Positions 3,529 through 5,328 of a stretch of DNA of 5,328 nucleotides are shown in pieces (within the stretch, counting starts at the first letter, position 1; each line of letters opens with the position of its first letter). Origin of the DNA: Elusimicrobia bacterium HGW-Elusimicrobia-2 (GTDB lineage: Bacteria; CG03). The notes under the pieces are model-generated. The model searched no databases. It saw nothing but the letters and a program-made list of their open reading frames with translations, and was not told where the DNA came from. Where the stretch lies: contig PHAM01000089.1 of the NCBI GenBank assembly GCA_002841685.1, positions 1 through 5,328 on the forward strand. Reading direction: 5' to 3'. A program made the position numbers and the translations under genes.

Positions 3529-3603
3529 ATGCCCTTCTGGCGGCCGGATATAATTTCAGCTTGTCTACTCGCTTGCGCTCTCGCTTTTTTCGGGACCGGA
3601 TGC
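3529..3603 (+). other. Signal peptide / degenerate lipobox of the fusion protein
   Basis: The first 25 codons encode a short leader with one Arg (residue 5) and one Asp, a hydrophobic stretch IISACLLACALAFF (8-21), then Gly-Thr-Gly-Cys25 and Arg-Arg. A small-residue run before Cys suggests signal peptidase II processing, but canonical lipoboxes carry Leu/Val/Ile at -3 and this one has Gly. Cleavage by signal peptidase I or retention as a membrane anchor are alternatives. Export is supported by the C-terminal L,D-transpeptidase domain, whose substrate is outside the cytoplasm. Confidence 0.65.
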
Positions 3604-4809
3604 CGGCGGAGTGCGGAGGATGAGGATTTTTCCATGATGAGAAAAAATATGGTGAGGGAGCAGATAGCCGCACGGGGCGTTACGGATCCGGCGGTTCTCG
3701 CCGCCATGGAAAAGGTGCCGCGGCATCTTTTCATCGATGAAAAATATACCGCTGTTGCCTACGACGATCATCCTCTGCCAATAGAAGAAGGACAGACAAT
3801 TTCGCAGCCCTACATCGTGGCTCTCATGACGGAGCTACTCTCTGCGTCAAAGGATGACAGGATTCTTGAGATAGGCACGGGAAGCGGTTATCAGGCCGCG
3901 GTGCTGGGCGAGATAACGAAGGAAGTTTTTTCGGTGGAAATAATACCGTCTCTCGCTGAAAGCGCGGCGGAGCGCCTGAAAAATCTGGGATATAAAAATG
4001 TCAGGGTGAGGGCCGGCGACGGATTTCTCGGATGGGAGGAGCACGCCCCCTACGACGGGATAATCGTCACCTGCGCGCCTAAGGATATACCTGGGCCCCT
4101 CATCGCCCAGCTCAGGGAAGGCGGACGCCTTGTCATACCCGTGGGCGAAGGTTTCCAGGAATTAAAACTGGGTGAAAAGAAAAATGGTGAATTCACCGTC
4201 AGGGATATTATACCAGTGCGCTTTGTGCCGATGACAGGCATGGCCGGGGAGAAGGCTTCGGAATCCGCGCCTTCCTTTGACCCAAGCGGATGTCTGGATA
4301 AATGGGGAAAAATCTTCGGCAAAAATATCAATACGGGCGTCGCGGTCAGCGTGTCAAAACAGAGAATTTATTTTATTGAAAAAGGCGCCGTCCGGAAAAA
4401 TTTTCCGGTTTCCACTTCCAAATACGGTATCGGTTCGCTCTCGGGCAGTAGCAAAACGCCTTTAGGAACGCACACCATATACAAAAAAACCGGTGAGGGG
4501 GCGGAAGAGGGCATAATATTCAAGTCTCTCATAAACACGCGCAGGAAAGCCCGTATCTATAAGGATCCTGTCGATGTGCCGGAAGATTTTGTGACCACGA
4601 GGGTGATTTCGCTGGCTGGAATGGAAAAAGGACTGAACAAAGGCGGCGATAGGGACTCTCTAAGCCGTCGCATTTACATACACGGCACGCCGGAAGAGGG
4701 GCTCATAGGCCGTCCGGCATCACACGGCTGCGTCAGAATGAAAAACAGCGATGTCATAGAGCTTTTTAACCTCGTTTCGGAAGGCATGCCGGTTGAAATA
4801 TTAGAATAA
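3529..4809 (+). CDS. pcm: Exported PCMT - L,D-transpeptidase (YkuD) fusion, putative lipoprotein
   Basis: A 426-aa two-enzyme fusion. Residues 1-25 form a signal-peptide-like leader (hydrophobic ~8-24) ending in FGTGC; Cys25 may be lipidated, although Gly at -3 makes the lipobox imperfect. Residues ~36-241 are a full protein-L-isoaspartate O-methyltransferase: MVREQIAARGV (41-51), TISQPYI (90-96), SAM motif LEIGTGSGYQAAVLG (113-127), acidic Glu137, AGDG (162-165), YDGIIVTCAP (175-184) and LVIPVG (201-206). After a linker of ~27 residues, ~269-426 is an L,D-transpeptidase domain with HGT (385-387) and SHGCVRM (398-404); Cys401 is the expected nucleophile, with His399 and Arg403. PCMT methylates isoaspartyl (and D-aspartyl) carboxyls for repair, while YkuD enzymes form 3-3 peptidoglycan cross-links or attach lipoproteins to it. 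The frame is uninterrupted. An in-frame stop at 3514 makes 3529 the first ATG; AGGGA at 3523-3527 is only 1 bp from it, so its SD is poor. An internal ATG at 3634 is better placed. The gene lies 18 bp after the icd-like stop, so it is probably the same operon. Confidence 0.93.
   Translation: MPFWRPDIISACLLACALAFFGTGCRRSAEDEDFSMMRKNMVREQIAARGVTDPAVLAAMEKVPRHLFIDEKYTAVAYDDHPLPIEEGQTISQPYIVALMTELLSASKDDRILEIGTGSGYQAAVLGEITKEVFSVEIIPSLAESAAERLKNLGYKNVRVRAGDGFLGWEEHAPYDGIIVTCAPKDIPGPLIAQLREGGRLVIPVGEGFQELKLGEKKNGEFTVRDIIPVRFVPMTGMAGEKASESAPSFDPSGCLDKWGKIFGKNINTGVAVSVSKQRIYFIEKGAVRKNFPVSTSKYGIGSLSGSSKTPLGTHTIYKKTGEGAEEGIIFKSLINTRRKARIYKDPVDVPEDFVTTRVISLAGMEKGLNKGGDRDSLSRRIYIHGTPEEGLIGRPASHGCVRMKNSDVIELFNLVSEGMPVEILE
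3615..3636 (+). promoter_or_regulatory. pcm: Possible internal ribosome-binding site with alternative ATG (3634)
   Basis: GGAGGA (3615-3620) and GAGGA (3622-3626) precede an in-frame ATG at 3634, the second with 7-bp spacing. This ATG sits exactly where the PCMT domain begins and beyond the leader, so initiation here would give a 391-residue protein without a signal peptide. The same bases encode an acidic Glu/Asp linker, and GAG/GAT codons produce SD-like strings by chance, so the site is only a candidate. Confidence 0.35.
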
Positions 4810-4828
4810 TAGTGTCCATAATAGTGTC
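4806..4828. repeat. 11-bp tandem direct repeat at the operon/AT-rich junction
   Basis: ATAATAGTGTC occurs at 4806-4816 and again at 4818-4828, separated by one base (12-bp period). The first copy includes the TAA stop of the fusion gene and the TAG just after it. The repeat lies where base composition drops, so it may be part of an insertion-element end or a small insertion scar; a chance duplication is not excluded. Confidence 0.6.
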
Positions 4829-4910: not shown

Positions 4911-4931
4911 TGGGGTCGCTATATGACCCCA
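4911..4931 (-). terminator. Hairpin over the stop codon of the transposase-like gene, possible terminator
   Basis: TGGGGTC (4911-4917) pairs perfectly with GACCCCA (4925-4931) around a 7-nt loop. On the minus strand the hairpin contains the last codons and the TAG stop (4919-4921), and is followed by CAAAACATTTTTG, whose T5 begins 7 nt past the stem. The stem is GC-rich but short and the T-tract is displaced, so termination may be modest. The plus-strand side lacks a T-tract, which favours action on the minus-strand transcript. Confidence 0.5.
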
Positions 4932-5328
4932 TACTGTATAGGCAAACAAAATTTATCCAAAGAGCGCGGCTTCATTTTGTTTAACTCATCGCAGAGTTCT
5001 CTGGCGGCATAATCAATCTCAGCATTTTTAAATCTTCTTAATTGAACTGTTAATTTTCCAGACTGCAATTTTACATAGGCGCCTCTTCTAACAATCATGG
5101 CCAGAGCCGGCCGGATTTCTTTTTTCTTGTCGTAATAATTGGAAAGAAACTCACACATCTTTTTTTCCATGTGGTATGTAAATATTTTGATACAATCTAA
5201 AAATCGTTTCTTCTCATAATTCAGCTCAACCAATTTTTTCCCGTCATGCGCATCATCAAATCTTATCTCTTGCGGAAGTTTGTCAATATTCTGTCCCAGC
5301 AATGTTATTTGCGAACGAATACCGACTA
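4919..5328 (-). CDS. Transposase-like protein, C-terminal fragment (5' end outside window)
   Basis: The minus-strand frame is open from the window edge to a TAG at 4919-4921 (136 codons plus stop). Upstream of the TTG at 5302 it continues without a stop as VGIRSQIT, so the start is outside the window. The segments DGKKLVELNYEKKRFLDCIKI, SGKLTVQLRRFKN and AARELCDELN resemble, from memory, the C-terminal part of a group of DDE-type IS transposases with the pattern LTVRLHHLAN...LCEELN. The catalytic core is not in the window, so family and activity cannot be judged. The protein is Lys/Arg-rich (for example YDKKKEIR) and its gene is much more AT-rich than the operon, which fits acquired DNA. It converges on the fusion gene. 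The mobile-element assignment rests on remembered similarity and context, not on a search. Confidence 0.6.
   Translation of the reverse strand, partial: VGIRSQITLLGQNIDKLPQEIRFDDAHDGKKLVELNYEKKRFLDCIKIFTYHMEKKMCEFLSNYYDKKKEIRPALAMIVRRGAYVKLQSGKLTVQLRRFKNAEIDYAARELCDELNKMKPRSLDKFCLPIQYGVI

Follow-up and report, generated by a model that had tools for sequence, protein, structure and literature searches.

Isoaspartyl methyltransferases of the PCMT family (PIMTs) bind isoaspartate through Thr60 and Ser62, in the numbering of the complex I PIMT, and SAM through Asp134-Gly135, and the Paracoccus complex I PIMT, which is without the isoaspartate- and SAM-binding residues, has been judged inactive (PMC11522691). 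Among enzymes with a YkuD domain, ElsL is a cytoplasmic L,D-carboxypeptidase whose substrates are tetrapeptides (PMC8649774). E. coli Pcm has neither a leader nor a C-terminal wall enzyme. The protein described here has both, and a search of the literature on PCMT with export and PCMT with L,D-transpeptidases, mainly open-access, returned no exported PCMT and no such fusion by title or abstract.

The window, which is the whole 5,328-nucleotide stretch of DNA that was analysed, makes up an entire contig of a 1.78-Mb genome (G000) that is 96% complete. Reading-frame analysis found an uninterrupted ATG-to-stop frame at positions 3529-4809 of the forward strand, encoding 426 amino acids plus the stop. 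As the initial annotation had read it, this single frame joins a leader (aa 1-25, 3529-3603), a complete PCMT domain (aa 38-237, 3640-4239) and, behind a variable linker (4240-4338), a complete YkuD domain (aa 271-424, 4339-4800), all on the forward strand; the PCMT and YkuD matches each cover almost the whole Pfam model. Upstream of the fusion gene lie genes which we take, from reading their sequences, to be aroB, leuC, leuD and a leuB-like gene. The congeners G002 (locus L034, 11890-12198) and G003 (L035, 3608-3913) have a small gene between leuB and PCMT, read as ATL/MGMT-type alkyltransferase-like, which is absent from the window. Downstream, a Transposase_29 fragment (4919-5326, reverse strand) runs off the contig end and probably explains why the assembly breaks there. 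A search of the genome found the fusion protein to be its sole YkuD and its sole full PCMT; a second match to the PCMT family scores 24 bits across 103 positions, and we attribute it to a different methyltransferase.

The PCMT half passes the cut-offs of PF01135 (220.6 bits against 20.3; E 2.5e-65), NF001453 (252.7 against 188) and TIGR00080 (232 against 159), and shares with Pcm/PIMT a full domain over curated cut-offs, 48% identity to E. coli PIMT in a structural alignment, and the catalytic and SAM residues. Thr90 and Ser92, corresponding to the isoaspartate contacts of PIMTs (residue roles from PMC11522691), lie in a GQTISQPY motif (3790-3813), and Asp164-Gly165 are kept, as are the SAM-binding motif LEIGTGSGYQ (aa 113-122, 3865-3894) and 44 of the 46 columns conserved in leaderless cytosolic PCMTs. 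The domain was modelled separately (pLDDT 86.5), the full-length prediction being poor for PCMT with only two alignment rows covering it, and the model has the PIMT fold (E. coli PIMT, 3lbf_A, Z 33.6, rmsd 1.5, 207 aligned). The PCMT half would be expected to be active on isoaspartyl peptides.

The YkuD half scores 87.9 bits against PF03734 (cut-off 23.4; E 1.3e-24), and its model (pLDDT about 95) has the YkuD fold (B. subtilis YkuD, 4a1i_A, Z 16.5, rmsd 2.5, 116 aligned). It shares with B. subtilis YkuD and the classical L,D-transpeptidases this fold and the HGT...SHGCxR active site, but the sequence similarity is found only around the active site and the window protein is without an accessory wall-binding domain. 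In alignment with relatives, the HGT of the active site (aa 385-387) falls at 4681-4689 and SHGCVR (aa 398-403), with the catalytic cysteine C401, at 4720-4737; these motifs are intact, like that for SAM, and both domains look active by this measure, as first noted. In the order of NCBIfam models the half is ElsL-like, the best being L,D-carboxypeptidase ElsL (NF040925) at 110.3 bits under a cut-off of 270, so it is not a member of that family. ElsL too is a single YkuD domain without LysM or peptidoglycan-binding module, but it is leaderless and cytoplasmic, whereas the window YkuD stands behind a leader-bearing PCMT (comparison with PMC8649774). The initial name, L,D-transpeptidase, is therefore kept as regards a YkuD domain with an intact active site and dropped as regards the activity: the half may be either an L,D-carboxypeptidase or a transpeptidase, since sequence cannot separate trimming from cross-linking. 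Exported M23-YkuD proteins of the phylum (G010-G013 and G015) resemble the window protein in a YkuD about 50% identical, a leader and a multidomain build, but have an endopeptidase in place of PCMT at the N-terminal side. This pairing of an M23 endopeptidase with an ElsL-like YkuD is Pfam-confirmed at L039 (4089-5429) and L042 (5157-6575), and homologues of similar size occur in three other genomes from the phylum.

The same fusion is present in the congener G002 (L034, 12188-13453), an independently assembled genome, where it lies in the middle of an 18-kb contig and is 80% identical over the whole protein. Between the two, PCMT has a dN/dS of 0.118 and YkuD one of 0.098, whereas identity is only 41% in the linker and 48% in the leader. 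This strong and similar constraint on the two domains, set against a drifting leader and linker, indicates that both are selected for in one frame, and the frame across the junction is still open after some 0.7-0.9 synonymous changes per site.

We found the fusion in 2 of 386 genomes (329 genera), those of the window and G002, and in no further case among 80 YkuD loci with their flanks (L054 is G002). Wide occurrence, which the initial annotation had named as grounds for abandoning its reading, is thus rejected, the fusion having been found in one genus only. DNA matching the window extends to base 4812 in G002 and stops at 4244, the end of PCMT, in the unfused congeners G003 and G001, neither of which has frameshifted YkuD remnants downstream of PCMT (the G001 contig ends about 176 bases past it). 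In G003 the PCMT core is 96% identical to that of the window, and directly after the unfused gene come one for an unrelated YcbB-type L,D-transpeptidase, on a chain of its own, and one for an M15/DUF882 peptidase. G003 groups next to the window on the PCMT tree, with G002 outside, and whole-locus identity to the window (95.7% for G003 versus 84.8% for G002) agrees. The simplest history is that the fusion arose before the window, G002 and G003 split and was then lost in G003; transfer or two independent gains are the alternatives.

Within the family, L,D-transpeptidase-type (YkuD) genes occur only in G000, G002 and G003, always at the PCMT locus; no YkuD was found in the genomes of G001, G005, G006 and G007, which have the same PCMT. 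Three congeners thus have such a gene at this locus, encoding enzymes of two unrelated kinds. This may be a sign that a wall function is useful there, although three related genomes are no proof. PCMT has no partner domain in G006 and G001. In G005 and G007 the leader-bearing PCMT is joined to a SagB-type dehydrogenase (TIGR03605; L036, 4362-5747; L038, 5598-6872); these fusions have the PCMT clade, the leader and the C-terminal fusion point in common with ours, but the partner is a SagB-family nitroreductase-fold enzyme and not YkuD. A PCMT-YkuD operon was rejected as a general association, with a single case in 80 loci, which chance could account for on a rough estimate. That case, in Omnitrophota (L090, 1079-3606), comprises a leader-bearing PCMT, an HtrA-like protease and a leaderless ElsL-like YkuD.

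The leader of the fusion protein is a hydrophobic stretch ending in Cys25 (FFGTGC), and both stretch and cysteine are kept in all four congeners. The lipobox is imperfect, with G at -3, a residue found there in none of six lipoprotein-like leaders from a 20-contig sample of the window genome, and the leader in G002 is short and has no basic residue ahead of the hydrophobic stretch. Since the window genome has three D,D-transpeptidase-domain genes and a signal peptidase II gene, peptidoglycan and lipoprotein processing are expected in the organism. Leaders are frequent in relatives of each half. About 22 of the 64 PCMT genes sampled bear one, and in several of these the lipobox is clear (LGSC, LSAC, LPAC). 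The count comes from a simple hydropathy rule and was corrected by hand, the window and G002 being added and one false call struck out. Leader-bearing PCMTs cluster on the PCMT tree, requiring 8 changes against a shuffled mean of 18.4 (0 of 500 shuffles as low), and several genomes have one leader-bearing and one leaderless copy. Among unfused YkuD relatives, a rule assigned leaders to 72 of 84, the nearest included, and another three look leader-bearing on inspection; some ElsL-like YkuDs are leaderless.

The reading that we favour, with a probability of roughly 0.55, is that of a single chain delivered to the envelope, where the PCMT half would repair isoaspartyl damage in exported proteins and the YkuD half would act on wall peptides, the two sharing an address and not a substrate. 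The N-terminal leader, probably lipoprotein-type, would take the polypeptide across the inner membrane; a putative route would bring SAM to the envelope, and the PCMT half would there methylate isoaspartyl residues of aged exported proteins, initiating their repair. The YkuD half would use its cysteine to act on peptidoglycan tetrapeptides, either as an L,D-carboxypeptidase or as a transpeptidase. We infer the membrane sidedness, both activities, the SAM supply and the lack of functional coupling between the halves. Of the options offered in the initial annotation, this was the simpler one, envelope protein repair with the two domains co-delivered, and it is the best fit to the canonical PCMT residues and to the leaders common in relatives of both halves. 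The swapping of partners (YkuD, SagB dehydrogenase or none) on a well-conserved PCMT also favours modular co-delivery. Further points in favour are the conservation of the whole fusion in G002 with constraint on both domains, the M23-YkuD proteins of the phylum, the YcbB-type enzyme that follows PCMT in G003, and the D,D-transpeptidase-domain and signal peptidase II genes. The atypical lipobox, the weak G002 leader, the need for SAM outside the cytoplasm, the cytoplasmic location of ElsL and the leaderless ElsL-like YkuDs count against it.

In an alternative that we consider unlikely, the protein never leaves the cytoplasmic face of the membrane, its leader being weak or a membrane anchor. PCMT would then use ordinary SAM to repair proteins of the cytosol, and YkuD would serve as an ElsL-like recycling L,D-carboxypeptidase. 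The cofactor problem would vanish, the genome has no other full PCMT, the YkuD half scores best against the NCBIfam model of a cytoplasmic enzyme (PMC8649774), the leader charge and lipobox are weak, most of all in G002, and a relative in G006 is leaderless. This is opposed by the conservation of the hydrophobic stretch and cysteine across the four congeners, the clear signal peptides or lipoboxes of leader-bearing PCMTs in many lineages, the leaders of the nearest YkuD relatives, and the unfused neighbour in G003, a YcbB-type enzyme that bears a leader by eye.

We also regard it as improbable that the fusion arose by a near-neutral accident, the loss of intervening DNA, and that the single chain brings no benefit. 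Its restriction to one genus, its loss or lack of gain in G003 (the homology ends at 4244) and the unconstrained linker speak for such an accident, but the frame has stayed open across the junction through the synonymous divergence given above, and the sole YkuD of three congeners is located at the PCMT locus. A shared substrate is less probable by far. The initial annotation had suggested, from a chemical resemblance to the D-isoglutamyl residue, that PCMT might modify or edit stem peptides. In the form considered here, PCMT would methylate the free alpha-carboxyl of stem-peptide D-isoglutamate and thereby modify or gate the YkuD reaction, an idea for which one could also cite the recurrence of a PCMT/L,D-transpeptidase neighbourhood in G000, G002 and G003. 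It finds no support here and is very unlikely: fusion to YkuD leaves the PCMT core unchanged (96% identical fused and unfused), the residues that contact isoaspartate are canonical, leader-bearing PCMTs with no YkuD partner are common, and four genomes of the family have the same PCMT with no YkuD found. Finally, that an assembly or frameshift artefact joined two genes, for which one could cite a window consisting of one short contig with a transposase fragment at its end, is ruled out for practical purposes by the 80% identical fusion in mid-contig in the separate assembly of G002, and the junction is genuine.

Under the favoured reading of delivery to the envelope, the cofactor has to be accounted for. 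SAM-dependent enzymes are thought to function inside the cell, and the initial annotation had pointed to a cofactor and topology problem. The problem is genuine, but it is not peculiar to the fusion: with so many leader-bearing PCMTs, it applies to a whole broad class of enzymes. In six genomes (for example at L048, 5017-7359; L050, 7157-9562; L051, 2349-4763; and L140 in G033), the gene that immediately follows a leader-bearing PCMT encodes a membrane protein of about 800 aa with weak similarity to spermidine synthase. Such a neighbour accompanies 6 of 20 leader-bearing PCMTs and 0 of 44 leaderless ones, in genomes that are partly related, and a link to SAM supply is possible. As a SAM supplier for the present protein it was rejected, the window genome having only weak partial matches.

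More broadly, and tentatively, since we would put it at somewhat less than even odds, leader-bearing PCMTs may represent a widespread, overlooked extracytoplasmic isoaspartate repair that uses a SAM pool outside the cytoplasm, and the wall enzyme joined to PCMT in this genus would then be a natural marker showing that the protein works in the envelope. A PCMT and a wall enzyme on one chain, in a lineage rich in leader-bearing PCMTs, makes envelope isoaspartate repair and its source of SAM directly testable.
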